Shown here: one piece after another, positions 2,668 to 51,100 of the stretch
Numbering within the stretch: position 1 is the first letter of the stretch
Layout: each line of letters starts with the position of its first letter
From: Macrocystis pyrifera
Taxonomy: Eukaryota > Sar > Phaeophyceae > Laminariales > Laminariaceae
Direction: 5' to 3'
Assembly (NCBI GenBank): GCA_031763025.1
Contig: JASSKH010000010.1
Span: 4,459,901-4,523,900, forward strand
Length of the DNA: 64,000 nt
The notes under the pieces: model-generated
Database searches by the model: none
What the model saw: the letters and a program-made list of their open reading frames with translations, nothing else
Told to the model about the DNA's origin: nothing
Translations under genes and position numbers: made by a program

Positions 2668-3768
2668 CTAAAACTGAAAGCCCTTGTCAAAATCGTCGTC
2701 GAAGTTGATCGTAGGCTGCTCGTCGGTGTTCACGCGCAGTACAGCCGCCGTGTGCGTGCTGCTCTTCTGTGGGCGTTCAGCTCCTTGCGCGAAGCATTCG
2801 GTGTCACTGTGCGTAGTGGTCTTGTGAACCGAGCACCACTTTTGTCCAGCTCCACCTCCAGCGTTTTTGGCTTGCCCAGCAGCAGCAGCAGACTTCTTGC
2901 CCTTTCTGTACACCTTGCCAGGCACAGCGCAACCGCTCTTGTAGTGGCCCTCCCTTCCGCAGTTGTGGCAGATGACAACGGAGCTGGTATCCGATGATGA
3001 TGCTGTTGCTGCTGTCATGATGGTGCCGCGTCCAGCGATTTTCCCAGTCTTTCCGCGCGAAAGTCCGTCCAGATATAGGTGCCTCATTGTTGATTGGATC
3101 TTCGACAGGTCGAAATCCGGGTCCTTATACGTCGTCAGCTTGATGTCGCGGTAGCTCTCCGGGAGTCTTTGGACGATGATGTCGGTGAAGTGGCGGTCGG
3201 TGACAGGTTCATTGACCGCGGCCAGACGACTACGAAGTCGTGTTACCTGCATGATGTAGTTGTCCGGATCTTCGTCAGGCTCCATGGTCGTTGCTGCAAG
3301 TTTTGCCTGTAAGGCTCGGATCGTCTCGTTCGTCACGCGCAGGTACTTTTGCTCAAGCTCTTTGATGGCTTTCTGCCCATCGCCTCCAGTCCCACGCTCG
3401 TCGAAGGCATGGATAGCCACGAGGAGAGCCGCAGCCTTATCGGTGACTAAGTACAGGATGGCATAGAGGTCCATGTTAGCTCGGTCGAATGCAGCTTGCC
3501 GTTGCTGCAGGGTCCCTCCAGCAGTGTACAGCAACCCTGGAGTTAACAGTAGTGCTGTATCTTCAGCCTGGTCGGTATCTTCCGCGGGCCTCGCTTGACC
3601 TTCCATAACGGCAAAAATGTCAGGTCGTTGCATGCTGATGATGAAGCCAGCCTTCCTGTGCCAGTCAGCGAAATCTTCAGGCTTCTCTCCAGTGTATGAC
3701 TCGATTCCTCGCACAGCGTTGATCAGACTGTTGTTCGCGCTGTTGCCCGTCATGTTGTCCATTCTCAC
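2668..3768 (-). CDS. gag: Copia-type Gag with zinc knuckle
   Basis: The 366-residue ORF is uninterrupted. The N-terminal 230 residues have the layout of the UBN2/Copia Gag family, including a SYTGEKPEDFADWHRK stretch near residues 24-39 and a long helical region that should form the capsid-like shell. Residues 267-280 are a CCHC zinc knuckle, CHNCGREGHYKSGC, expected to bind the element's RNA. A second Cys/His-rich stretch (CSVHKTTTHSDTEC) follows. The product ends in an acidic tail. In autonomous relatives Gag is fused or adjacent to pol; here a stop follows and no pol is seen before the 3' LTR. Start choice: the first ATG of the ORF lies about 220 bp inside the 5' LTR edge. Family assignment is confident; function in trans is inferred. 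Confidence 0.88.
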   Translation of the reverse strand: MRMDNMTGNSANNSLINAVRGIESYTGEKPEDFADWHRKAGFIISMQRPDIFAVMEGQARPAEDTDQAEDTALLLTPGLLYTAGGTLQQRQAAFDRANMDLYAILYLVTDKAAALLVAIHAFDERGTGGDGQKAIKELEQKYLRVTNETIRALQAKLAATTMEPDEDPDNYIMQVTRLRSRLAAVNEPVTDRHFTDIIVQRLPESYRDIKLTTYKDPDFDLSKIQSTMRHLYLDGLSRGKTGKIAGRGTIMTAATASSSDTSSVVICHNCGREGHYKSGCAVPGKVYRKGKKSAAAAGQAKNAGGGAGQKWCSVHKTTTHSDTECFAQGAERPQKSSTHTAAVLRVNTDEQPTINFDDDFDKGFQF

Positions 3769-3979
3769 AGCAGTCAGCGACGTTGTACTCGTACGATGTT
3801 GTAGTCGCTCGCAGCAGCAGTGCTAGTTGTTGCAGCTCGTAGTAACTCCAGGTAGAGGATGGCCGTGGCAGCTCTCTCGTGAAGCTCGTTGCGGAAGCAG
3901 CAGCTCGGGGTCCTGAAGCGCAGCCTAGTACTTGGCGTACCTCGCGGCCCGCAGCTCTGCTGTTGTGCTTGAACGTCGA

Positions 3980-28989: not shown

Positions 28990-31900
28990 ACTACCGTCTA
29001 TGCGCTTTGAGCTGGCTAGCAAATGCGAGGCAGTTAATTTCGTCGTTGCGTATGCTCCAACTGATTGTACCAAGGACGTTGAACTGAAACGTAGTTTCTG
29101 GCAGAAGTTGTGGAGGACTTGGTGGAAAAGATCCCTACAAAAGAGTGTCTGTTTGTACTGATGGATGCCAACGCGCGAACTGGATAGAGGATGGAAGGGT
29201 GTGTTGATGATGAAAGTAGAGTGCTTGGAGCATATGGGCGTGATGTTCGTAACGATAATGGCAGACGACTCCTGTCGTTCGCCACCAATTGCAAGTTAGC
29301 TCTCACCAACACGGTTTTCAGCACGCGCAAGGGTGGGATTTCGCATACACACAACGGCACCAGCCCGAGTGACCGTAAGCGAATCGACTACACCTAACCC
29401 GTCAAGCCCAACGACCTAGAGTACAAGATGTTAAAGTCGTCCCACAGCCTCCTGCCCCAGCTAAGGCTGACTCAGACCACAACATCTTGTATACCAAAGT
29501 CCGACTCAGTGGTCACTTTGCGTCCAACAAACAAATACGTAGACCGGCAAAACGCCGAGAGTTCGACAGGCAGCTTTTTATGTCCGATGGAAAGTGTCGT
29601 GAACGAGTAGTCGCGAGGGTAATCTCTACTCTCAACCACCTTACCCAGCCCCGTAATACGTCTGGCATGGTTGAGTTTTTCACTGCGGCTATTATTGATG
29701 CGGTCGAAAAAGAGGTACCACCCCCTCCACGTCGCCACCGCAGACATGGATGGTGTGAGTCTGCCGAAACCTTGGCCGCATTCATATTAGCATGGACAGC
29801 GAGGGGGGATGCACGGCAATTCTTGCGTGCCCACCCCGGGATAGAACCGCGTGGAAGACACTGAGATCTGCGTGTGCGAACCTGCAGAAGGTGATTGCCG
29901 CAGGACTGCATGCGTACTTCGAAGCGTACCTCGCTGAAACCGAACGACTACTAGCGAACAGCGACCAGAGAGGCTTTTACAAGCACCTTAAGAGAACGGT
30001 AGGATTGGAAGGGACTAAAGCGAGAAGCGAACAGTTCATTAGGGACGAGGATGGCACGCTGTTGCGGGATAAGGTGCGAATTCGTGAACGGTGGGGGAGG
30101 TTTCACCACAAACTTTGAACACGAAATCGCTTAAACTCGATTCCACGATCATCGACCTCTTGCCGCCACAACCGCTTAAACTGTCGCTCGGAGATGAACC
30201 ATCCATGGACGAGATGACGGAAGCACTTAAGGGGATGTCAAACTGGAAAGCTGTCGGGCCAGATGGTCTCGCGGCCGAACTCCTGAAAATCGACCACCCA
30301 GCATTCGCCCAGTGCTTTCACAACATCCTTGTCAATGCTTGGTTAAAACAGGAGAAGTCCCCCAGCAATGGAAAGATGCGATCATCAAGGTCCTTCACCA
30401 AAAGGAGGACCGAACTGATTGCAACAACTACAGAGGGATTTCGCTTGTTGCTCACGCAGGCAAAGTCTTGTTGAAAATCGTCGCGTCTCAGCAACTACTG
30501 CGAGACCGAGGAATTACTCCCGGAGGAACAGTGCGGCTTCCGCCCCGCACGATCAACGATTGATATGTTGTTCGTCGTGCGCCGGTTGCAAGAGCTTGGA
30601 AGACAGAGGAAAATCCCCCTGTACTTGTGCTTCATCGATCTGCAGAAAGCGTACGACTCTGTCGACCGAGAGCTGTTATGGGAAGTACTCACACGTTTTG
30701 GCGTACCAACTAAGATGCTGAGAATTATCCGTAATTTCCACGATGGCATGCGGGGTCGCGTGCGTACGGATGACGGCGAGCACTCGGAATGGTTTGATGT
30801 CACGCAGGGGCTGCGGCAAGGCTGTGTGCTGTCACCGTTACTGTTCAACATATTTTTCGCTGCTGCGTTGCACGTCGTACTAGTACGCTTTAGCCATGAC
30901 GAAACCATCGTAAGGGATTTGGTCCAACTCAGTGATACTGGAGTAGTCGGAACGGAGGAGCAGGAGCCGTTGGCGTGCGTGCGAAGGGCTGTATGGGGCA
31001 TGTTGTACGCCGATGACGCAGGGATAGTCTCGAAGTCGGCTGAAGGGCTCGCGAAAATGATGACAGTCATCGTGACTGTCTTCGAAGCAGCAGGCCTTAC
31101 GGTGTCGGAAAAGAAGACAGAGACTATGCTTCTACAAACGCCAGACCAGAAAACCCTCGCACCACCGCTCGTTATCGAAGCAGCAGGCCAGAGGTATAAG
31201 CAGACGGCCCAGTTCTTGTACCTAGGCGGCATTATCCACGAAAACGCTGACCTCTCGCTCGAAATCGACCGACGGATCCGTCTCATGCGAGCATGCCTCA
31301 AACGGTTCGGCCCGGAGCTGTATGATAGGACGACCGCCCCCCTTAGCCTGAAAGTCCGAATGCTGAAGGCCGAGGTGATTGAGACCCTGCTGTACGGGTG
31401 TATGACGTGGACCCTCAGAGCGGAACACTTTGCCAAGCTTCGAACGGCTCACCACCAAGTCCTGTTGCGAGTCATTGGCTCCCAGCGCCGACTTCGTACT
31501 GACCACGCCACCCTCTCGTACGCGAAGGCCCTCAAGATGACACGTTGCGAGGGCATCGAAACGACCATCCGCAAACGGCGTCTCTTCTTCGCGGGGGGGG
31601 TGGTACGGCAAAGCAAGGATCGATTACCCAGTCGGGTAATGTTCGGGACGATTGCTGGGGGGGAGAACCCGAGACCTCGCGGACAGGTTAAGACTTGGCA
31701 TAGATGCATAGTCGAGGACCTTAGGGAGTTCCGAGCCACCGAAGGGTCAACGGAACTTGCTCCCTTGGTGTTTGGAGTTGAGACCGCACTGTGGCCCACT
31801 GCTGCAAAAAAGGCGGGGAAGTGGTACCGGGGGATCCTTGAAGCAGCCGAACGGTTCATGGTGAGGTGGCACGAGGCTGAGGCTGAGCTGAGCAGGCATC

Positions 31901-32460
31901 GCCGCGCATCCGCCGTGGGTGGTGTCCAAGGGAATGGGGGCAGGGGGGGCAACAAGAGGAGTGGCAGAAAGCCCGACCAAGGGAATGCAGAGAGGGGGGG
32001 GGGGGAAGAGTAGAAGGGAAACTGCAGTGGACGAAATTAGGAAGGAGATGGCAGACAGGGTAGCCAGGTACCGGCCAGACTAGGGAGTAGAACATGCCTA
32101 TACTACTCGTACCGACTGGTGCAGCTGGTTCGAACATGGTCTTCCTTTGTATCCCTGTTGTTCTTGTTTATTTTTGTTTCATTTTATTTTCCTCTTTGCG
32201 CTGACCCTATGTGATTTTCACTATATTTTCTTTCTCTTCCTTTCCCCGATTGATAAGCCTTAGTGAAGGAGTCGTGTGGCCTGGGTGGATGACGAGACTG
32301 CTTTGCTTGTTTCGTACTGTCTGACGCCGAGGGGCTGGGCATAGTTGACGAACGCTGGACGACGGTGGCAGACACGGTAGCAAGGTACCAGGCGGGCCAG
32401 CAGGGAGACCCTGGCTGTGCTACTCGTACCATAAACTGCTGCCGCTACCTGGAGCATGCC
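28990..32460 (+). mobile_element. Non-LTR retrotransposon (LINE), 5' half decayed
   Basis: Endonuclease-like sequence (NFVVAYAPTD near 29035, LMDANARTG near 29160, DRKRIDYT near 29375) is followed by a linker, then reverse transcriptase ([14 protein letters not shown] near 30250; [26 protein letters not shown]) and a basic C-terminal region. The order APE endonuclease then reverse transcriptase is that of LINEs; the clade is undecided. The 5' half is broken: an in-frame TAG near 29184 and frame changes near 29105, 29395, 29830, 30105, 30345 and 30510. From about 30515 to 32013 the frame is open. The 3' untranslated part to about 32460 is shared with the truncated copy at 44164. Confidence 0.85.
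30565..32013 (+). pseudogene. LINE reverse transcriptase, C-terminal ORF (482 codons)
   Basis: This is the surviving open part of the LINE ORF2-like protein. The first ATG at 30565 is not the true start: the same frame is open and RT-like from about 30515. Visible motifs are [12 protein letters not shown] (residues 23-34), [14 protein letters not shown] (82-95) and the catalytic YADD (148-151), followed by the thumb-like region and a conserved C-terminal domain with LYGCMTWTL. The enzyme would copy the LINE RNA at a nicked target site. The catalytic aspartates are present, but endonuclease and fingers lie in broken frames upstream, so the copy should be inactive. The Gly/Arg-rich end coincides with G homopolymers and may be inaccurate. 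Confidence 0.8.
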
Positions 32461-33249: not shown

Positions 33250-34340
33250 GTGTAGTTGAAAGTGGTGCCAAGAAAGGTGCTGTAAGATTGATGCGATATA
33301 CACAGAGTAGTAGTACTCGTTTTTTATTTTTTATCGCGAAAAACATAATCGGGGCAGAATGTATTTTTCCAACCAGGCAACACAGTCACAAAAAAAAAAG
33401 TCTGAAACCAACTGAAAACCAGGGTCTGTGATTTAAGAATGTACAGGAGATGCGAGGATTTGGTGAATATTGATTGGCATTGAATTGGCTCCATGTTGTC
33501 AGGCTGATTCTTATGGGAGCCGAAACCGGAAAACAGAACAGGGTTTGTAGAGAGATCCAGGAATATTTTCGTGCAAATCCGATTTATAGATCGAATCTCT
33601 CATAGACCAAAAACAGAAATCTCTAAAGCATTTCTGCCTTTCGATCAGAAATGGCCCGGCCAGACGAAACCAGACACCAGTTTGTTCTGTACGGCCCCAG
33701 AGCTGGCCGAAACTGGTTTTGAACCCCCACACAGGAGGCATAACGTGGCGAACTTAATAATACTCGTACAATTAAAATTAAACCCGAACGATACCGTTTC
33801 CAGGCATTTTTGGGGATTGTACTCGTAGCGATGTTTGGGAAAACCAGCAATCAATTTTTGATAAACAAATTTTATAAATTTTGAAATACGTCAGCTGTGA
33901 GTTCGACTGATTAAATAGTTGATACTCACCTTTGCAAGCTGCGTAATACGCCTCGTCTATATTCCATTTTTACCGAATTTCACAAGTATTGTGATAAACC
34001 GAACGCGCGTATTCTATAGGTGATTCCTTGTCAAAGATATAGGCGAGCGGCTCCCCTGGATGCTGCCCGGGTCAACAGGACAATTTTAAATAAACATTCT
34101 GCGCACTGATACGTACTATACAATAACCCGAATAAGGGATATTGATATGATGTTGCAACATGTTGAAACCTTTTCATTTCACAAATATTTATAGATTGAT
34201 TGAGTGTTATTGATTTTCTGGGAAGGTATGGTTCTAAGTGTGAATAATTCTTCCGGAGATGAGCTGCTGCTGTTCTTGCTGCTGCTGTTTTTGTTACTTC
34301 TGTTGTTTTAATGGTATGGTTCTAAGTGTGAATAATGTGG
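33250..34340. other. Gene-less stretch with short duplications
   Basis: No gene recognised. GGTATGGTTCTAAGTGTGAA occurs at about 34225 and again at about 34313. A CTG-repeat patch lies between. Confidence 0.4.
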
Positions 34341-34342
34341 AG

Positions 34343-34541
34343 AACCAGGAAAATTACGCCGGTTGAACCACAACCATTCCGTAACAGCTAGGTCTAAAAG
34401 GGCAGGAAGGCATGAAGATTATTCCTTCAAAGAGGAGCAGCAATTTGAAGGCAAACATCTTTGCGGAAAACCAGGAAAATTACGCCGGTTGAACCACAAC
34501 TATTTCGTAACAGCTAGGTTTAAAAGGGCAGGAAGGCATGA
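34343..34541 (+). repeat. Direct repeat upstream of the small spliced gene
   Basis: Two units of about 73 bp at 34343-34415 and 34469-34541 start AACCAGGAAAATTACGCCGG and share AGGGCAGGAAGGCATGAA. The offset is 126 bp, a multiple of three, so an ORF from 34363 runs through both; whether it is translated is unclear. Confidence 0.75.
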
Positions 34542-34590
34542 ATGTTCTTCATTCTTCCTCCAAAGAGGAACAGCAACGCACCGCCGCGAC

Positions 34591-35593
34591 ATGAGCCACC
34601 CACACGCTCACAACGCAACATCACCAGCCACAGCAATACTCGCTTCCATGTCATCAGCCACTACGCCAACGACGAGTTCAACATCCAGCGTCGGTCCATC
34701 TCAGCTGTCGACCGTCCAGCCCAGTGGGCCCAGAGAAGCCATCGCCGCTACGACGCATACTCGCGTCGTAAGTTTCTTCACGCGCGGCGTCGTCTTGCGC
34801 CTAGTTGAGAGTGAGTCTATAGTTGTAGTAATCAACGGCTACGCCGTGAAAGACTACCTCCGCAGCAATTTGACAGTCAAGTACTGTACGAGGGCTCCCC
34901 CGGACAACGTCAGGAAGCTCATTCCTTCGCACTCGTGGGTGGTCCAAGCGTCACCCCCCACCAACGCAGTAAAAATTGCAAAGGAAATCAAGGCTGCCGC
35001 CTCGCTCGCAGTCGACTCGGGTGACCGTCAGTCAGAGGTGAAGGTACGATGTTGCAACACTGCCGGCGTCTCGTGGTTTTCGATTAATTACCTGAGTTGC
35101 GTCTTCGGCGTCTCGTGTTGTCTGTCTGCTTGCATGTGCGCACTTATCTTCCACGGCATATTTTTCGGTGCGACACGCGCTACGAACCACGTCTTAATTG
35201 TCATCTATCTGTCTCCTTCCATGTGCGCGCTAGTTTTCCACGTCATTTTGTTAATTGTCCTTTTTATAGCATGCGCTGATTGTCCTGTAAACAGCAGTTG
35301 TGCTTCGCCCTGCTTGCGAAGCCTCCACGGGACTTGACCGCCGCCTTCCTGTCTCGCGTTTTCGGCGTTTTGTGTTGTCTCCTTTTTGTATGTGTGCACT
35401 TGCGACAAGCGCGACCACGTCTTACTTGTCGTTAATTTACCGTTCTATCTGCAGCAAGCAAGTAACGAATGGCTTTGTATCCCACTGCTGTTCGTCTCAA
35501 TGTTCTTCTCCCCCACAGATATCTCGAGTGCGCCTCAACACTTCGCAGCGCAAAAACTTGGAAAGCTATGGCGTCATCCCCTCCAACGACTGA
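34591..35593 (+). CDS. Small two-exon gene of unknown function next to the Rep gene
   Basis: Exon 1, 34591-35043, ends at an AAG|GTACGA donor. Exon 2, 35519-35593, follows a pyrimidine-rich CCCCCACAG acceptor. Both are phase 0, giving about 175 residues: a Ser/Thr/Ala/Pro-rich head of about 50 residues, then a compact part with SFFTRGVVLRLVESESIVVV, KLIPSHSWVVQA and a KIAKEIKAAASLAVD helix, ending GVIPSND. I recognise no domain. The mixed beta/helix tail could be a small DNA- or protein-binding fold. The gene lies 850 bp upstream of, and in the same direction as, the HUH-Rep gene, which suggests but does not prove a shared element. The frame is also open upstream to 34363, but that part covers the direct repeats; I prefer 34591. 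Confidence 0.5.
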
Positions 35594-36443
35594 GATCAAC
35601 TTAATGAGGTCCTCCTTGACCTCTCCTGATTCGTCGAAGGACCTCTTCATCCCAGATGATCGTCACGCCGCGAGCACAAATATCTCCTAGTAATAACTGC
35701 TTCTGCTATTAATAGTGATGCTTGCTGTTTTTTTATGGTACTGGGTTGTATGCTTGTACTCGTACCGTAGGTAGCATGTGACATGCGAACGAGCGTATGA
35801 TATCATACGAGTACTCGTAATACTGTGGTAGTATACGAGTACAGGTACTACTGTAGTAGTACTGCTGCTGCTGTACCAACGATGCTGCTGCTGTGCGAAC
35901 GAGTACTACTTGAGGGAAAAAAAAACGGTCGAGGAGCTAGATGAGAGCGAGAGGTGGAGACAGTCTTCGAAGCATTTGAGTCGGCTTTCCTTCATCTCGT
36001 GTTGCTTCCGAGGGTGGGCAATTGGTGGGTTATTGCTTTAGCTTTTGCCAGAGCGATATTTGTTTACTGGTGTTCAGTGTTTGGTTTCTCTTTCGCGCAA
36101 AGATGATTATATTTTAATGCCGCCCTTAGCGGCACAACTACTGTGTCGCATTAACGGCCTGGATTTGCCTACGATACATACAACAAATCAACTATTTAAT
36201 CAGTCGAACTCACAGCTGACGTATTTCAAAACTTATACAAACAAATACATGCTCTTGTCATTACGGGCATCCGCGAAGCCGCAACAAAAACATTACTTCC
36301 CCTTGTGCTCTTCCACCTCTCTTTAGCTGGTATTATTGCAGGTCCATGCACCACCTTTTAAAAGTGCCTCATATATATTTCCGTTTAGTCGCTTACGCGT
36401 CGCCGCCGCTTGTCTCTTCGCGCAGCCCTCTCGGCAACAGCAG

Positions 36444-39400
36444 ATGAGCCAAGCCGCAAGAGTTGCTTTTTCTGCCGGGTGTCTTCGCCTCTTCGATGAC
36501 GAGGCGATGGGCCCTAGCGGCGACCCTGCGGAGGCTGAGGGAATGTCGGACGGTGACAAGTACGACGCGACCTTTATCGACAACCGCCCTGTGGAAGAAC
36601 TGCCGACCTACAGCGATGCAGAGATGGACGTAAGTGCAACAGCTTTCGAACGGTTTGAAGTTTTGGTCTCTGGTATTTTGTCTTCTGTCTTCATTGAATT
36701 CTGCTGAAAGACTGTTTCCACGAGAGTAAAAATATTTTACGTCGCGTGTGCGCGGGTCTTTTGTTCTCAAATTGGGCGAGTACTCCTCCGCTTCGACCGC
36801 TCAGAACTGAGACGTCTCTATGTGTGTTACGTGTATGCCAGTATTTCTTATCTTAGTTTGCTCAATTTATGCTACTGCGTTGCTCCTTTGTACCACCTTG
36901 TACCATAGTTGGTCGTTTGTTCACACGTCCATGTTGTATTTATTAGCTCTGTTTGCTCAGTTTATGCTACTACGTTGCTCCTTCGTACTATCATGTTTGC
37001 TCGTACTGTTCACAGGTCGATGTTGGAGCTCCGGTGATCTCGTCAGCGGCTGTAGCATCCGTCTCTGCCTCCTCTCCGCAGGGTCTTCAGGCTTCCGCCT
37101 CCAAATTCGCCCTCTCCAGTAGCTGCCCCAGCCGTCGCCGATGCTCACGCGACCGTCGGTGCTGCCGCTACCGATGCTCAACCTGGATCCGGGACGGATG
37201 CCGAAGTAACGTACGGACCCTACCGTCGAACTAGCGGCGACGGCCTACTTAGCGTGGAGTGGCCAAGATCACCCAACGGCACGGGAAAATCCGGCTTCAT
37301 CGACGATGAAGCCGGGATGCGTTACGCCTTTAGCTTCACCCTCACCTGCCTCAGCGGCCACACCGACGTCTCCTTCCAGTGTTTCGAGAAGCTAGGGCAA
37401 TTCGCGCATGTCTTGTGCCACCGTGCCGCTATTGGGCTGGAACGCGGCGGGGTTCGTCGCGTTCTCCATGTCCAAACGGTGTTGGAGATAGGTCTGGACC
37501 ACCACGGCGACACCTCCAAGATAGCGTCATCTCTCAGGGAGAAGATTCGGAAGCTTTGCGGCCTCGTCGGGGCCAAGATCACCGTCAAGGAACTCGCGCC
37601 TACCCAGACTTTCGCACGTGAGGCTCTTCTCTTGTATATTTTTCCCTCAGTGTTTGCCTACCCACACTTTCACCTCTCCTTGTTTTGCTTTCGCGCTTGC
37701 CTGCCTTATCCTTCTCCTTGCGAAGTCAGTTCGTGTTATCTTGTTCATTATTTTCTCGTTTCCTTTCGTTGTTTTTTTCATTGTCTCTATTGAGCATCGC
37801 ACCTGTCTTGTTTTTTTTTTATATACCCTCTCGTAGGAGTGATGACCGGTTACTTCCACATAGAGTCATGTTCGCCTGCCGTGTTGTTCTTTGGCGCTTG
37901 CCGATCTCATCCTGCTCCTAGCGAAACAATGTCGTGGCATTTTGCGTGATCCTCTTCTCATTTATTTTCCGTGTTTTTCGTTCTCCCTATTGTGCTTCGC
38001 ACCCCTCTTTTTAGTTTTTTGTCCTCTATCCTCTCGTAGTCATGACCGGCTACGTCCAAAAGGACCCCGACCGAGCGTGGTACGCCTTTGATTCTGTGGG
38101 CATTTCGCCGGAATTCGTCCGCGACACCCGCGAGAACTACGAGCGCACGGCCAGGTGAGACTTCACAAACGGTTCAATGAGTACTTGACACTTGATCAAC
38201 AGTTTAATTTGCAAGTTTTGGGCAACATGATCAACACTTACTTTCATGTTATGAAACTGTTGCATATTACCCCGCCCTTGCTGTTGTCTTCTACTTACTA
38301 TTTTCAGCGGGTGCGTCAAGGACGAGGCAAGGATCGAGGTCACCAAGAAGGCTTTCTGGGGCATCTGTCACAAAAAATGAGGCAGGAGTTCTACCCTCTC
38401 TACATGTCTCCCGTCCAAGTCCTCAAATTCTGCATCGACAGCCGCGAATACATCCCGCACTTCTCCTGGGTCTCGCCAACCAACGCTCAAGGCATCCCCA
38501 TCGATAAAGCCAGGTCGCTGTGGACGCCCTACGTCTGCCCGGAGGAGGTTCAACGCGAAGACATCTACAACGTGAGTAGCGGTTTCCTATATTTTCCCGT
38601 TATATATTATTTGTCGCGATTCTCCCTAATAAAAAAAAAAAACAATAACTAGTGCCGGTTTAGTATGTCCTGATGAGGTGGTGCCTGATTTCGACGTTAC
38701 GTGGGTTATGTGTGCCTCTATATTGCCGAATGAGGCCTGATTGCCAAGTTAATTTCGGTTACCCCGTATAGTGCCGGTTAAGTAGTGCTGGTTATATGTC
38801 GAGTTGTACCGTGGTTCCCCACTATATTCTCCTGCCCCCTATATTGTCAAGTAGTGCCCACTATTATGGGTTGGCCCCTATAGTGTCGGTTAAGTAGCAA
38901 CTGCTTTATATCTTGCCAATTAGTTCGTGCCGGTTACCTCCCACAGCGCCTGTCACATCACTCGTCACAAATGGGAACAACCAGTAGTTGGGATATAGGA
39001 GTAACTGCAGTTCCCTCGTTTTGCCTGTTTCAATAGGTACAGGTCCCTCTATAACGTCGGTTTTTATGTCCCTCTCTATACTTGGCCCGCAATTTTTTTT
39101 GCCGCGATTCGCCCGAACAAGAAAATAAATACGAAAATAGTGCCGGTTTTGTATTTTTCCAATGAAGTAGTTCCTGATTTCTACGCCGTATTCCTATTAT
39201 GCGGGTCTTGTCTTTGCCGGTTAAGTATTAGGTGGTTGCCCACCTTAGTGTCGGCTAGCCCATACCTATTATGCCGGTTTTGTCTGTTACCGGTTAAGTA
39301 TTGCCAGTTGCCCCATATTTTTGTGTTTCCGGTTGTTGACTGTAGTGCCAGTTACCCCTCACACTAGTGCGGTTTACCCCTTACAGCGTCGGTTAACTAG

Positions 39401-40183
39401 TGCAGTTTAGTATGTTGCCGGCTAAGTAGTGCCGTTTACAAAATATGGTGCTGGTAGAGCCGTTTATAAACTATGGTGCTGGTTTAAGTACTTCTGGTTT
39501 CGCATGTTGACGGTTAGTACTGCCGGTTACCCGTTATAGTGCCTATCAAAGCTCACGTCACAAATGCGAACCAACGCAGCTGTGGTACAGCTATATTTCC
39601 CACGGGCATACCACTATTACTTCGTGCCGGTTCTCATTTCCCTCTATATTGCGGTTGTGTAGTGCCGATTACCCACTATAGTGCCTGTCACATTGTTCCT
39701 CGCGAGATGCTTACTCACGTCGTGTACCTTCTTTACGTGTGACGCACGTCGTGTACATTTTCTACGTATTCCCTACCGTTGCGTCGCTTTTTACGACAGA
39801 TCTTCTTCGACACCCACCCCGGGTCCACCTGTCAAGCGTGGGAACTCTCCGACCTGCCATTCGCCGACATGACCGCTGACGGGGCGCAGTCTCAGGCTTC
39901 TCGTCGCCGCGACATCCTCACCCCTATGGCGGAGGCGGAGGTTAACCTCGCCCTCGACGCCGCTGGAGGTATTCCTAGTGCCCCTGCCACGACGGCAACG
40001 GCCTCCCCACCTTCGCCTGGCTCTCCCGCCGAAGACACCGCCACTGCTGCAGGTGCGTCCGGTAGATCTTCCCACGACTCGCAGATGTCGGCGTTCATGT
40101 CTGCCCCCGACACGCTGCTACTGTCTAACATTGGAATCGGCGAGGACAGCAGCCACGGCGAGGGGGAGGATCCAGACGCCTAG
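36444..40183 (+). CDS. Spliced HUH-type replication-initiator (Rep) gene, Replitron/CRESS-like
   Basis: I read six exons: 36444-36629, 37016 to 37617 (probably more than one piece), 38040-38154, 38308-38571 and 39800-40183, with GT donors and AG acceptors (GTAAGT at 36630, GTGAGG at 37618, GTGAGA at 38155, GTGAGT at 38572). The central part has the three Rep motifs in order: FTLT (37335-37346), a HVQ variant of HUH (37467-37475) and YVQK (38051-38062), the single catalytic tyrosine followed by Lys. CRESS-virus Reps and related plasmids share this order, as do Replitron transposases (one-tyrosine HUH transposons of algae and plants). I see no Walker A helicase motif after YVQK; instead there is a helical domain and an acidic Ser/Ala/Pro-rich tail. 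The phase across the intron before YVQK is consistent. The frame fails to carry over at about two points, so the copy is either slightly decayed or the assembly has indels. As a nickase it would cut and join single-stranded DNA. Confidence 0.6.
37685..38065 (+). repeat. 200-bp tandem duplication across an intron-exon border of the Rep gene
   Basis: Two units, about 37685-37865 and 37886-38065, both hold a GCGCTTGCC start, a T-rich stretch with ATTG(A/T)GC(A/T)TCGCACC, CCTCTCGTAG and ATGACCGG(T/C)TAC. The second unit supplies the acceptor and the start of the YVQK exon. The first is a diverged duplicate inside the intron, with its own possible acceptor at about 37835. Confidence 0.75.
38640..39700 (+). 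repeat. Degenerate GTGCCGGTTA repeats inside the last Rep intron
   Basis: Most of the 1.2-kb intron is made of drifted copies of TAGTGCCGGTTAAGTAGTGC and CCCCTATAGTG. This looks like an old minisatellite that enlarged the intron. No coding sequence. Confidence 0.7.
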
Positions 40184-40910
40184 TTGTCTTCGCTTTATCT
40201 GAATTGGATAGCTGTTCGGGCAAGTTCGCCTACCTATTCTCTCACGAGAGGTCACCAACGTCTTCCTGCCATTTCGCCACTTGTCCGTGCAGGAGGTTAT
40301 GTTGCACAGTGGTGGCACCGTCAAAGAGGGGCCGGGGCGGGGAGTGTAGATTTCCTTTCCTTTCCTAAATTAGTCAGTCGTCGGTGCAACTTCCCGTGTG
40401 CATCATTCATGGGGGTACTGACGCTTTCATATCGTGGTTACTACCTACCACGCCCACGGTGGATGCGGGGGGTGGCGCAGGTTTTCTTGCGATCTTGTCG
40501 TGAGATGTTCACCCGTCGGGGTTTACATGGGAGGGGGTTCTGTAGTGCTTTCGCTGTTGGCGTGAGTGTTAACATATGTTCGTTGTTCATCTTTTTTCTG
40601 TCGTTGCCATGTGAAGAGGAGTGTCACCAATATATTTCGGACGTGCTTCTAGACCTCCCTTCCTGTACGTTTTTAGTGCTCACGTGTTCATCTTCCGTTG
40701 TGAAACCAGTGCATCTCTGCTGTTGCACCATCCCGTCGAAGTGCATATTATTGATGGTGCATGTGATCCATATGATACATCTGAGCAGTTTTACCACAGG
40801 AGTATACGAAGTCCGTACTGCAGTACTAGAGAGATTTTCGTACAGTCCCAAAGAGTATCACCTTGGGTTGAACAAAGTTTTGCTTGACGTTCCCGTAGAA
40901 GTACATATTA
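40184..40910. other. Stretch downstream of the Rep gene
   Basis: Probably 3' untranslated and flanking sequence. A 255-codon ORF spans it on the plus strand but has no motifs, runs into a tandem array and follows the Rep stop directly, so I treat it as chance. Confidence 0.4.
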
Positions 40911-41113
40911 TACATGATGCATCATCTGTTGTACAGCAGTTTTATACATGATGCATCATCTGTTGTACAGCAGTTTTATACATGATTCATCATCTGTTGT
41001 AAAGCAGTTTTATACATGATGCGTCATCTGTTGTACAGCAGTTTTATACATGATGCATCATCTGTTGTACAGCAGTTTTTATACATGATGCATCATCTGT
41101 TGTACTGCAGTTT
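40911..41113. repeat. Minisatellite, 34-bp unit, about six copies
   Basis: Units start at 40911, 40945, 40979, 41013, 41047 and 41082. Each holds the perfect palindrome ATGATGCATCAT (one or two units carry a single change), then CTGTTGTACAGCAG. Spacing is 34 bp with one 35. The array is nearly homogeneous, so it is recent. Confidence 0.92.
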
Positions 41114-41400
41114 TACGAAGTCTGTACAGCTGTGACGGAGAGGTTTATCTTGCGTTCCCGTAGAGTCCATTCGGGTTTCCAACTAGTAGGTTTTATAGAT
41201 ACATCTGTTGTATAGTTTTCCCTTAATGCGATTTCACGAAGTCTGTACAGCAGTTGCGAAGACATTTATATTGCGTTCCCGTGGAAGCCGTTCTGGTTTC
41301 GTAACTAGTGGGTTCGTTTCTATACAGCAATAGTAGCGAACACGTTTATATTGCGTTCCCGTAGAAGCCGTTTGGGTTTCGCAACTAGTGGGTTCATCTT
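41113..41400. repeat. Second tandem array, about 80-bp unit, three copies
   Basis: Three diverged units near 41113, 41233 and 41320 share GAAGTCTGTACAGC, TTTATATTGCGTTCCCGT and TCGCAACTAGTGGGTTC. A weaker relative appears near 40806. Confidence 0.75.
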
Positions 41401-42720
41401 GGACTTTCCTACTTGATTCGCAGCATAGGGCAATACGTACGAGTAGGAAGAACGGAGTCCGCATTTTTCACTTATTGTTGTAACTTTCACGGCTGTATGA
41501 CGTCGATAGATTAGTCGGTGCACAGGTTACATTTAGGGAGTTGCTACGTAACCTGTGCAGTGCACACACTGCGTACTAACGAGAGATACATGCATCGGTG
41601 TACACAGCTTATTTACCTATAGTTTTAGCGGGGTCTGTACAACGGTGTTGTACGCTGCACTTCTCGGCGAGATTTTTTTTGCCGTTCTCCCTCGAGTTCG
41701 TTTTTTTTCTCACCGGGACAGTATTTTTCCATGGGTGTCACTTGTTTTCGTACATTTTGTCGCGTTTTTTTTCGTCCGAAGTGAGATTTCATGTTGTGCT
41801 ACTCTGTTGCGCGCATGTATTTGGCGGAGAGAAGGCCGTAATAACCTTGACGGCTAGTTTTTTTTCGGTTCTCCCTCGTGTTCATCTTTACTCGCCGGCG
41901 AGTTTTAAAAATTTGTTTTCAGGATAGGAGTCAAGGATTTTATCTTACGTCGGCGCCTTCTTTCTTGTACGTGGTGGGATTTTGGTCGATTCCGTTTTGT
42001 CCATATGTTTTCCGGGGGAAATGCGCTCTTCAGCGTCAAAACATATCAATAATAATACATGCATGTCAAAGTTACCAGTGTTTATTATCTCAAAATAACC
42101 TCCGTCGTAATTTTTCTTTTTTTCGTCTCATTTGCCACCAATTTTCTTCATCAATATAACGTTTTTCCAGCAGAAAATCAGTGTTGATGTTGGTATTATT
42201 TGCGAGATTATGTGTCTGTTGTCTTTACTGTTGTCGCATTTTGATAAAAAAAACTGTTTATTTTTCTCTCATTTTCATCAAATTTCCTTCACGGAAAGAC
42301 GTCATTCAGCCACCAATTCGCTTCACGGAAAGACACAATTTAACGTTTTGACCCCCGAAGATAGATGTGCGAATTTTGCGGGCAGGAATTGCCCACCAAA
42401 AACGAAACAAGGGGGGGGGGGGGGAAACGAAAAACAATTCTGGAAATTTCCTCGGGAGGGGTTTCCAAAAAGACAAGAAGGATTCTTTACTCCAAACTTC
42501 GCAGGCGTTTTTCACTCTCGATTTACTCCTCAACCAACCCCGACAGTGTTTTCTGTATAGCGATGCTTCGTATTAAAATAAAATGTCAGCGAGGAATCAC
42601 GCCTCTCCATCGCAACGCAGAGGATATCGTATGTCATGGGGAAAAAAATGGTACCATAGGACCAATATTTACCTTGATTTGGTAATAAAAAAAAAAGTAC
42701 TACTACTTACTGCTATCCTC
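41400..42720. other. Gene-less A/T-rich stretch
   Basis: T-rich and G-homopolymer runs (12 or more G near 42411). ORFs here are low-complexity and lack motifs. Confidence 0.35.
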
Positions 42721-45534: not shown

Positions 45535-45553
45535 TTGGTGACCACCGTGCTTT

Positions 45554-48147
45554 TTGACCATGCCACGCTCCGGGGGTCGATCGAAAAATCAACGAACGAA
45601 GACACGTCTAGCGGCTGAAGCAGCGTCCAGCAACAGCCGTGAGTCGAACTTCTTCGAGGCCCTGGCGCGCCGAGACCCCGACGGACCCGAAACGAGCGAG
45701 CAGCCTGGAGTGGAGGAGACTAAGGTGGCGGACGACGACATCGAGCCCAGCCCCGCGGACGACGACATGGAGCTCAGCCCCGCCGACGAGGAGGAACTCG
45801 AGGAAATTACAGCTCAGGCCTCCAGTCTGGCGGAGGACGTCATGGCGGGACCGAGCCCCTTCCCCCCCGGAGACCCTGTCCGCCTCGAGACAGCAGCGTG
45901 CCTCCGACGGTGTATGCTCGACGGCACGACTCCGCCGACCTGGGTGCTCCAGATGGTCATGCCAGCGAATGCGAACCCGGTGAATGGGCCCACAGCTGCC
46001 CAGATGGGAGAGGTGAGAGGAGTCTCAAAGTTGCCAACACAAAATCTCGACTTAGCTTTTGAGGGGGCCGCAAACTCACAGACTAACGCAGCCACCCCAG
46101 TCCAGCAGTCGAGCAGTTCGGACAGCAGCAGCCACTCCCCCCTCGACCTATCTGGCCAACCTGTGCACGCAGCACGCACATCCTCTGCTGTGTCCACACC
46201 CGCTAACGCTCGCTCACAGCTGCCAGTACGTACATCCTCTGCTGTAGCCCCACCCACCAACGCTTTCGTGATGCAGTCAGCACGCGTACATCCTCTGCTG
46301 TAAGTGAAGAAACTAACCAGTCAACCCCAATCTCGACTCAGCCGACTGATCACGGAAAGTTTTCAATAAAAAAGACAGACCTTCCGCCTTCACTGAAACT
46401 GATCGGGTCACTCTCGGAAGACATGCCCGAGATCATGGCACTCTTCCACTCTCGCATCCGCTTACACTCCCCTGACAATACACCGGAAGCAACTATCGAC
46501 CACCATGCAGTCAAGTACCTCCCCCTCCTAGTCAGCGGTGAAGCAGCTACAACTATGCAACAACTACAGTGCGAGACTTTAGAGTGGCGAACCGACAAAG
46601 AACTGGCAGAACTGAATGATGATGAGGAGGCGCGCGAACTCCGAGCCCCCCGCTCATACCGTGACTGGACCAACGCCTTCACAAATCTGTTCAGGCCAGT
46701 TAATCGCATCGTCTTGCTCGCTCGCACCATCGCCAACCTCAAGCAAGGGAGTAGTGAATCTGTCGACTCTTACGGATTGAGAGTAACCCAAGCTTATGCA
46801 CGACTCCTGGCGGAAGCCAAACGCACCGCTCCCCCGAACGTCTCGCCGTACAAACACGCGTGGCAAACCTCTCTGATGGCCACTTTCGAAAACGGCTTGA
46901 TTCCCCCAATACGAGTAGAGCTCATTCGCGAAGACCCCTCCCTCACATACAAAGCATCTCGTACGCGTGCCAAAAAGCACGAGACGAAAGCCTCACGCGG
47001 ACCCCCCCCACCACCCCCGACCACGTACGCATCTGCCCTCACTGGCGCCTCCCCTCGCCCTGACCGACAGCTGATTATGTCAATGGCAAATATCGAACAA
47101 TCCATTGTTTCCAACTCCACAGCAGGGCGGGGGCGAGACAACAGGGTCACCTTCGCCAAGGACTCGCAAGGCCCGGCCGAAAAACGTGGCAGGTCGGCGA
47201 GCACGGACCGCTCGCAATCCCGCAAGACGAAGGTTGCAGCGGGGGCCGAGTGCGACTACCCTATGTGCCGGCATCGAACCTCCCACTCGCGCCCCGAGTG
47301 CCGTTTGGCCAGGGCGCATGAGGAGAAGGGGTGGATAGTGAGTAAGAAGGATAAAGGAGGGGACCCGCGCCGGTTTCCTCAAACCGGTTCGGCGAGTAGG
47401 TTAGCTAGGACCACCGAGCTTGCGGTGCAAACGATAGCGCAAGCAGCTAGCGCCACCGTAGCCAGCGTCGGTAGACCTAGTGTTAAGAGGAGGGATAAAA
47501 GTGGCCGAGAAACGTTCGACACCCCTCTGGCGAACACCTGCGCAAAACACGTACATGCAGGCGACCAGTCGAATACTGTAACAGACTTATTGAAAAAGCA
47601 GCAGGTTCCGAGTGTCTTAGCAGTACAGCATGGAGTGGGACACACCGTAGAAACAACAAGCAGAGTCGAGATGCGTAGTCAGCGTCAAAGTGGTACGTTT
47701 TCACGTTCCATGGTACCGCAAGCCTTGTATGTTTCTGCTGTCAACCGCAATTTTAATGAGAAGAAGAATCATCATCAGGTTTTTTCATCATGCGACGCTA
47801 ACGAAAGGCGCTTTGATGCTTTCCACGCGTCAGCAATGAGTGGGTACCCAAAGTATCCCACCGCTTTAAACTCGTCGTCGAAACGCGTACGAGTAAACGC
47901 CAGAGTCAATAATCATCCTGCGCGCAATGTCCCCATTGACACAGCAACCGATGTACCGTGCATTTCTGTTAACTTCGTCCAGACACACCCCACAATGAAA
48001 AACACTGATAATTTTGCAGTACCCACGGAAGCGATCAACCTCAGCAGTGCTGATGGTTCACCTCTCAAAATTTTAGGATACGTTCGCTTTGAACTGACAC
48101 TAGGAGATATTACCCAGCCAGTCGAGGCGTTTGTATGCCCTCTCTAG
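45554..48147 (+). pseudogene. Gypsy Gag and protease region (fossil)
   Basis: The first part is acidic and Ser/Pro-rich. A Gag-type helical domain follows (about 46420-46980). A Cys/His cluster, CDYPMCRHRTSHSRPEC near 47255, sits where the nucleic-acid-binding knuckle is expected but does not have the usual CCHC spacing. An aspartic-protease-like segment near 47935 (VPIDTATDVPCIS) closes the region. It is part of the broken Gypsy element. Confidence 0.75.
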
Positions 48148-51100
48148 GGCCAGACATTGTGCTCCTCGATAACTCTATCATGAACGCCTTCGGCGGTGTC
48201 CTCGATTGGAGTACAGAGCAATTGTCATTCAAAACACCTCAAGTCAAAATAAAAGCATCTCACCGTAGAGTGAATGTTACGACACACCTCGAAAACACTG
48301 CGACAGCTCAGTGCTCCGTGGTCTCAGTTAATACTAGTGTCGAACCCGTACCGGTGTTTTTGAAAAACAAATGCTGCATCCCCCCTCAGAGTGAGATCGC
48401 AGTTCAAGTAGAGTCCGTGAAAGCACCGACCGAAACCACTGCTGCACTAATTGAACCACTGATCGTCACGGTCGAGGACATTGAATCTTCTGCTGTACCC
48501 AAAGCCTTTCAATTTATGATAGTTGCTCGTACAGTGTGCCACTGGTCGACCACTGATAAAACAGCAGTCGTCCAAATCGCGAACCCGTCCCATCAATACG
48601 TATACTTGAAACGGAAGACATTGCTCGGACATATTGCACCCGTATCAGTAGCCTTGAACAACACGACCAGTGCAATTCAGACCAACAGCAGGACAACAGA
48701 ATCTACTAGCAACGACCTCCGTGCAGCACATACTACAGCGTTTGATAAGACCACGTTCACACCTGGCGAATGCGCACAAGTACTGGAGCTATGCACCAAA
48801 TACCGAAGCGGTTTTTCTCTGTCACCACAAGAGCTAGGTAAATGCACCCTAGCCGAGGCAACGTTTCCCCTTGAACCTGGAACACGTCCTGTAGATAGAA
48901 CTCCGTACCGGGCAAACCCACGCGTACAGGAGACTATCGACAAATGCGCGAAACAAATGGAAAAATATGGAATCATCGAACAGCGCCCTAGTCCCTGGGG
49001 TTCCGCAGTAACTATTGCCGCCAAATCAGACGGCACTCCTCGGTTCTGCGTAGATTACAGGTCGACAATAAATAAAAGTCTGATCAAAAAGTCATGGACT
49101 ATGCCCAACTTAGAAAGCCATCTTGACACGGTTGGAGGAGCACGCTATATAACCGTGTGCGACGTATAAAATACGTATCATCAAATACCAGTAGCAGTCA
49201 GCGAACAAGATAAAACTGCTTTTGTCATGCAGAATGGAAAGTGGGTCTTCAAACGCCTACCCTTTGATATAGCTAACGCACCGTTTCTGTTCTCGCGAGT
49301 AATGTCATTAGCTTTTGCACACTTTGGTCTGAAAAGTGGTCTCTTAGTATATATGGATCACTGTATATGTTGTTCATCAACCTGGGAAGGCCACCTACAA
49401 CTGCTGGAAAGCATGTTCAAAGCATTGCAAGCAGCCGGCTTCACGCTGAAACCGTCGAAAGTACAGTTTGGACCCCGAGAGGTTAATACTCGGGACACAT
49501 TCTGACCGCCGACGGAGTTCGGATTGGTGAGGATCGCGAAAAGCTATAGTTGACCTACCGACACCTAAAACCATTAACGAGTTGTGGTCAGTACTTGGAA
49601 TGGTCAACTTTGTCCGCAAGTTCATACCAAACTTGGCTAGCGTCATCGCACCCTTGGTAGCCCTCACAAAGAAAGAGGCCGTCAAGGAGGTATCTAAACG
49701 TTGGAACTCAGAACGCGACCAGGCGTACGCAACAGTGAAACAATTGTTCACCCAGGGGCCCGTGCTACAGTTCCCCGATTTTTCTAAAGACTTTGCGATA
49801 CACGTCGACGCTTCAGAGGCGGGCGCGGGAGCATTCCTCGCCCAGCAGAAAGGCGACGACCTCGTAATAATCGCATACTTTAGTCAACGCTTCAATGACA
49901 GCCAACGCCACTACTCCGCTACACTCAAAGAATGTTACGCTGTTTTGTTGGCAATACAGCATTGGCGGCCCTATTTATGGGGACGACACTTTGTATGTGT
50001 GACGGATCATGCGGCACTACGGTACCTGTACTCAATGCAAGACACATCGAACATGTTAACACGCTGGGCGATCGCATTACAATCGTATGATTTCACCGTC
50101 CAACACAAACCCGGTAGCTACATGTCGTGCCGGACACGCTTTCACGAATGTTCGCGTTTGAGCATCAGCAAGAAATCGCTGAGCCGTCCCTTGCACCCAT
50201 TTGCCGGAATGTACCAGATGGCCCTGAACTACAAACAGCGCGAACTCCCCGTCCTTATCAGGTTTCCGTCGAAAAAACTGACTAATCTCGAGCCAGTACG
50301 CAGCGATAGAGAGCTTTTTAGTGTGAAGTCAGTATTCGCGAGCGCGACCAATGTTTTCATGTCCGTCGATCAAGAAAACCTCCGCTTGGCTCAAGCAGCA
50401 GAGCACGGTCCGTATATTGACTACATTCAGCACGCAGACGTGCCCTTACCGGAGAAAGAAACGAAAACAACCATGTCATACTATTCAGTACAAGACGGAA
50501 TGTTATTCAAATCGTACCTTCCGGGACACCTTCGAAAAAGAAGCACATTTCGCGATCAGTTGGTAGTACCAGAAGCCCTTGTCGGTCTAATTCCGTACGC
50601 TTATCACGACCACGTCATGTCAGGAGTACACCTCGCATCCAGACCAGCTTACGATAAAATCCGCCAGAAATATTGGTGGCCTACTATAAGCCGCGACGTG
50701 CGAGATTGGTGCGAAAAATGCCAAGCTTGCCAACGACGAAAAACATCACACGTCAGACCCAAACTCCCAACAGGCCATTTACCTGTCGAACGACCGTTCC
50801 AAAGAATATCGGTTGACTTGGTAGAGTACAAATCGGTATCAACTTCAGCCGCAGGCATCGAATGTAAATATGTTCTCTCGATGATGGACCGTCTGACACG
50901 TTTTGCAGTGTTGTTGCCGGTACGTGATAAGGCGGCCGACACAGTAGCCCGGGCCATCATCGAACGAATAATTAGTATTTTCGGCCCACCAGAGACCTTG
51001 CACTCAGATCAAGGCCCCGAATTTGAAAACAAGGTAATATACCAGCTGCAACAGATCCTCGGATGGTAAAAGACCCGAACGACTCCGTATCGACCTCAGG

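Follow-up and report, generated by a model that had tools for sequence, protein, structure and literature searches.

The window analysed here is a stretch of 64,000 nucleotides from the giant kelp, Macrocystis pyrifera (positions 4459901-4523900 of C190; the assembly comprises 537,376,219 bases in 223 contigs). Between 36444 and 40183 it carries a Rep gene of five exons separated by GT-AG introns. This gene lies within an element whose two ends recur elsewhere in the genome; a second gene, ORF1, is found upstream of it in the same orientation and between the same shared ends. Both the element and ORF1 are additions to the initial annotation, which concerned the Rep gene. The features are as follows.

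33777-42536, plus strand: element, read here as a Replitron, delimited by the shared ends; 8760 bp, about 8296 bp without the 464-bp insertion
33777-33805, plus strand: left end, a 29-base sequence common to other copies (genome match)
33801-33811, plus strand: subterminal CAGGCATTTTT, 24 nt from the left end, a candidate Rep binding site
33872-34335, no strand assigned: 464-bp insertion, missing at the same place in the C200:10624k copy
34591-35043, plus strand: ORF1 exon 1 (in-frame synonymous excess, homologues)
35459-35629, plus strand: proposed ORF1 exon 2 (three-periodic differences in bin 35490-35639, frame read by eye)
36444-36629, plus strand: Rep exon 1, its donor GT present in 9 of 10 copies
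37016-37617, plus strand: Rep exon 2, bearing motifs I (FTLT) and II (HVQ); the frame changes in the 5' part
38040-38154, plus strand: Rep exon 3 with motif III (YVQK) and the proposed catalytic tyrosine
38308-38571, plus strand: Rep exon 4 with the Replitron_C domain; frame change near its start
39800-40183, plus strand: Rep exon 5, a low-complexity tail without family match
40908-41115, plus strand: 34-bp tandem repeat within the element, 6.1 copies
42502-42512, plus strand: subterminal CAGGCGTTTTT, 24 nt from the right end
42515-42536, plus strand: right end, a 22-base sequence common to other copies (genome match)

Other open frames in the window were judged by eye: a long one at 30475-32013 has the look of a LINE-type reverse transcriptase, those at 45542-51069 resemble gag, protease, reverse transcriptase and integrase of an LTR retrotransposon, and one on the minus strand at 2668-3822 resembles a Copia-type gag with a CCHC finger.

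The Rep gene and its companion ORF1

The motifs FTLT, HVQ and YVQK occur, as the initial annotation held, in the order of Rep motifs I, II and III, in frame and flanked by GT-AG introns, the former two on exon 2 and the latter on exon 3. Taken alone they are weak evidence, because the six frames of the window contain six hits to a loose pattern of motifs I and II, five of them outside this gene. The profile match settles the identity of the Rep where the motifs alone would not: against the Pfam family Replitron_HUH (PF21859), exons 2 and 3, when joined, score 53.2 bits with an E of 5.1e-14 and cover positions 8-127 of 128, no other family being listed up to an E of 10; the unjoined exons score 24.6 bits (exon 2) and 15.7 bits (exon 3), both below the cut-off of 28.5. 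Exon 4 matches Replitron_C (PF21860) with 27.3 bits, barely above the cut-off of 27. The annotation's remark that no Walker A helicase motif follows motif III agrees with the absence of any Pfam helicase family from the frames tested, that is, the Rep exons, the ORF1 pieces and ten further frames across the element; the latter ten matched no family at all. Searched by sequence, the PDB gave only matches with an E of 0.58 or worse, for Rep as for ORF1.

The tyrosine of YVQK is proposed to be the single catalytic one; it is present in 9 of the 10 copies compared (L029 has FFQK), and a second tyrosine follows ten residues further on. The HVQ of motif II had been called unusual; it is there, but it is not peculiar to the window copy, since all nine rows of an alignment (A2) have the same H and Q; this alignment takes in two loci of a second kelp family (see below) and omits one copy without the motif II stretch (L028).

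An AlphaFold2 model of exon 2, computed from nine rows and of low confidence (mean pLDDT 50.5; about 56-75 per ten-residue block for residues 91-180), places a strand at 88-98, a helix at 107-120, strands at 123-130 and 137-147, a helix at 153-168 and a strand at 174-179, with a further predicted strand at 64-69. Motif I (residues 94-97) lies on the first strand of this core and HVQ (138-140) on its third strand, in agreement with the order found in Reps. The Rep fold expected in the initial annotation is thus borne out in topology only, the model being of low confidence; a Foldseek search with it gave a best E of 0.007 and no Rep was named among the 50 PDB matches listed.

ORF1 carries an early stop in the window (35591-35593). 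It has 35 matching stretches in the genome, with identities down to 27%. Four of five ORF1 pieces had no Pfam match at an E of 1 or below and the fifth had a sub-threshold match only; two diverged ORF1 relatives had no Pfam match, and Foldseek with a low-confidence ORF1 model gave a best E of 0.18. That ORF1 is a neighbouring or captured gene, carried along without being a working part of the element, would account for its presence at places where the Rep exon 2 is not listed (for example C200:1350332 and C199) and for its being found in the fetched stretches of only 6 of the 10 further copies. We consider this unlikely, as ORF1 lies between the shared ends in all three copies for which both ends are known, and in a diverged family a homologue precedes the Replitron-like gene in the same orientation. 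The latter homologue (C223:7458645; 31% identity, E 1.1e-5) is located on the same strand as a 35.7-bit match to Replitron_C, some 3.2 kb upstream of it; between the two lies a piece reading HLQG, whose alignment to the HUH exon is weak (E 0.5) and which the Replitron_HUH profile does not match. From this arrangement we infer that the locus may represent a diverged Replitron-like family with the same gene order.

Copies in the kelp genome, coding signal and decay

The protein encoded by Rep exon 2 matches 19 stretches of the genome, the window copy included. Fourteen belong to ten further copies with 76-90% identity over the exon 2 pieces, two to a more diverged copy on C219, and two to the loci of the second family, at 24-30% identity. 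Around each of the 13 loci besides the window 10 kb were fetched. The ten copies resemble the window over introns and exons alike, mostly with 85-97% identity per 200-bp bin, and splice sites are retained in most of them and lost in some; several carry stops. As the copies are alike across introns and have mostly kept their splice sites, the element has moved and multiplied as DNA, introns included. A search of the kelp genome with the Replitron_HUH profile gave 18 matches, 12 of them above the cut-off, and none in 14 control genomes; with Replitron_C, 8 of 10 matches in the genome were above the cut-off.

Synonymous and non-synonymous differences between the copies and the window were counted in the proposed frame and in the other two. 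For ORF1 exon 1 the ratio is 169:169 in frame versus 75:262 and 55:278, for Rep exon 2 it is 177:212 versus 97:290 and 79:308, and for Rep exon 4 68:112 versus 40:139 and 36:141. There is no coding signal in Rep exon 1 (38:85 versus 38:84 and 31:91) and little in exon 5 (66:140 versus 55:149 and 46:158); exon 3 points in the opposite direction (16:55 versus 40:31 and 10:61). A three-base periodicity of the differences was flagged in 11 bins of 150 bp, two of them outside the predicted exons and a third mostly outside; its significance is overstated because differences are shared by descent (an intron bin reached a p of 1e-9), and the periodicity is only supportive.

The preference for synonymous sites in exons 2 and 4 and in ORF1 would also be expected of a domesticated host Rep gene that is no longer mobile, an alternative which the initial annotation had allowed for. 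Such a gene would hardly exist in eleven copies, the window's included, which have common ends and differing flanks wherever the ends were found; in addition, stops or lost splice sites occur in several copies and the window copy itself is broken. The ten further copies, which include the introns, make the element a transposon rather than a domesticated gene, the latter being very improbable.

The frame of the window Rep gene is interrupted about twice, as had been noticed: once within the 5' part of exon 2, where the open frames change and the variable codon position shifts, and once near the start of exon 4, with nine insertion cells among the nine copies that cover this exon. Judged from the frames, the window copy appears unable to make an intact Rep or an intact ORF1 protein. 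The description of this copy as a young relic is right only in part: in most bins its difference from the other copies is roughly 4-12%, and larger for L020 and L021.

On C223 (C223:9250318; L022 5719, L024 19) exon 3 of a first copy is adjoined, across a few extra bases, by a second copy in inverted orientation, and the sequence past exon 1 of the second copy resembles, by eye, a retrotransposon. This arrangement was considered as one element nested in another and the idea was rejected, as the far side of the first copy was not found in the fetched stretches and the junction holds a few extra bases.

Ends and target sites

The genome-wide search for copies with shared ends, suggested in the initial annotation, yielded, besides the ten further copies, the left-end sequence at 8 places (up to 3 mismatches) and the right-end sequence likewise at 8 (up to 2 mismatches); reversed patterns, used as controls, gave 0 in both cases. 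Not all of these are independent insertions: about 20 bp of flank are common to two left ends on C192, and one locus (C200:10632k) holds two right ends at a distance of 410 bp. The remaining flanks differ between copies. A right-end match on C208 has, by eye, no element sequence upstream and may be due to chance. From end to end the element measures 8760 bp in the window, 8388 bp in C200:10624k (counted up to the first of its right ends) and 7761 bp in C202; the exact ends are uncertain by some bases.

In the C200:10624k copy (L037; C200:10632500-10633500) the last 0.4 kb of the element stands twice in tandem, with the same 14 bp after each; either rolling-circle copying that ran past the end or a simple tandem duplication could account for this. 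The stretches 33874-34135 and 36187-36236 of the window match the same places beside two other copies (L025, L027) in opposite orientation and are probably pieces of a small non-autonomous element.

The terminal 20 nt of the two ends share no direct repeat of at least 5 bp, the longest common word being AACC (4 bp); the 5-bp AACCC is common to both only if 12 nt outside the element are allowed. The 100-nt terminal pieces, folded as DNA on both strands, gave no unusual hairpin (z -0.33 to 0.87). CAGGCRTTTTT is found 24 nt inside both ends, left and right differing by one mismatch, a similarity equalled by 56 of 1000 shuffles and thus weak; the left subterminal sequence may serve as a binding site for Rep, and is put forward as a lead only.

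The three copies for which both ends are known show no target-site duplication at these exact ends (0, 0 and 1 bp) when the ends are slid by up to 15 and up to 8 bases, a test blind to the reading of C200:10624k with 16 added bp that is given below. For two of these copies unoccupied counterparts of the target were found. The flanks of the C202 copy, when joined, match across the junction at 38 other places out of the 40 matches listed, the remaining two being its own flanks; of 61 candidates 40 were scored, and 14 of the matching places were aligned. The empty target reads mostly CTCG followed by ACAGACAT, the occupied site CTCG, ten extra A/T-rich bases, the element and then ATATACAT, so compared with the reconstructed empty site this insertion has no duplication of at least 2 bp. 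For C200:10624k the right flank was read from behind the second right end; of the 40 matches listed for its joined flanks, 38 are again other places (40 of 160 candidates scored, 14 aligned). Here the empty target is ATTGAAATATGTGC in 12 of the 14 aligned sites, L064 and L066 being slightly different; the occupied site has ACTATTGAA on its left side, and on its right GAAATATGTGC follows 16 bp past the usual right end. If the 16 bp were added to the right end, a target duplication of 2-5 bp would be possible. The search for an empty site of the window copy gave no reading, because the left flank of this copy belongs to a dispersed repeat, most matches to which stop about 17 bp before the junction, and the right flank is not in that repeat.

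Relation to Replitrons and other HUH elements

Eukaryotic HUH transposons were, to our knowledge, long thought to be Helitrons only; the paper that defined Replitrons is reportedly that of Craig (2023, PNAS). The kelp element resembles Replitrons in its HUH domain with the tyrosine in motif III, its Replitron C-terminal domain, the lack of a helicase in the frames tested, its presence in many copies and its algal host. The initial annotation's main reading, a Replitron transposase without helicase, is upheld by both Replitron Pfam domains and the ten further copies, and we regard the window element, with a probability of about 0.92, as a decayed representative of an autonomous Replitron about 8.3 kb long, which encodes a Rep with the Replitron C-terminal domain and no helicase and, in addition, ORF1.

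A copy-and-paste route is the most likely one for such an element. Rep would hold a metal ion through the HxQ motif, and the exon-3 tyrosine would nick one strand at the end of the element and remain bound to it; host replication would displace a single-stranded copy, which Rep would then join into a new site. ORF1 might help to bind the strand, the ends or the target.

HxQ is also the form of motif II in circovirus Reps, and the Reps of CRESS-DNA viruses have motifs I-III in the same order and form, so that FTLT, HxQ and YxxK could be taken for the mark of an integrated CRESS-type virus or its remnant. We hold this to be about as improbable as domestication, since the kelp Rep has introns common to the copies and a Replitron C-terminal domain, and since neither a viral Rep family nor a helicase was listed up to an E of 10 for the joined exons. 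In addition, a pattern scan of IMG/VR viral contigs with the HUH alignment confirmed no relative (45 stretches matched, 0 confirmed). With ORF1 190 stretches of IMG/VR matched and 0 were confirmed; among prokaryote genome contigs 102 stretches matched the HUH alignment, and again 0 were confirmed. Helitrons are eukaryotic transposons with an HUH enzyme fused to a helicase and with a close pair of tyrosines, and a Helitron or Helitron-derived element, to which the large size, the HUH enzyme and the C202 insertion without target duplication might point, is the least credible explanation, there being no helicase in the tested frames, one YVQK tyrosine with the next one ten residues on in place of the close pair, and scores for both Replitron domains.

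A second Replitron family is present in the kelp genome at two loci (C196:4959k and C200:14145k), with Replitron_HUH above and Replitron_C below the cut-off. It shares with the window Rep an HxQ in motif II and an exon break directly before motif III, but it is only 24-30% identical to the window exon and no ORF1 match is listed there. In these loci (L031 on C196; L032, C200:14140000-14149999) motif II reads LHCQ, and the last frame has repeated cysteine/histidine stretches with a zinc-binding, PHD-like look by eye and one sub-threshold Pfam zinc-finger match.

According to the available part of a plant review, Replitrons measure 0.9-4 kb, occur in green algae and some land plants, have short direct terminal repeats of 5-11 bp and can generate target duplications of 2-8 bp. 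Measured against that part of the review, the kelp element differs in its length of about 8.3 kb, its two genes and its five-exon Rep, and also in its ends, which lack a direct repeat of at least 5 bp, one of the two empty sites moreover pointing to insertion without target duplication. By the domain tests the element is a Replitron. It forms a long variant with two genes, and its ends depart from the published description to the extent that this part of the review gives it. The term "brown algae" does not occur in the three searched papers that name Replitrons, the plant review among them. A 2025 curation of Ectocarpus transposons lists Helitrons, and its main text contains no match for "Replit-" or "HUH"; as far as this main text goes, brown-algal annotations may therefore lack the Replitron class.

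Whether the kelp element stands for a distinct two-gene Replitron lineage in brown algae, with a Rep and a conserved ORF1, termini without direct repeats and little or no target duplication, is a possibility that we raise tentatively and would not yet favour. If this were true, ORF1 would be a new transposition factor, perhaps one that binds the single strand or the target. Among the parts of the element, ORF1 merits further work. It provides a companion gene to test, and the unoccupied target sites offer a reference against which the mechanism of insertion can be read. A long, intron-rich, two-gene Replitron from a brown alga would widen the architecture of these elements beyond that given in the available part of the plant review.
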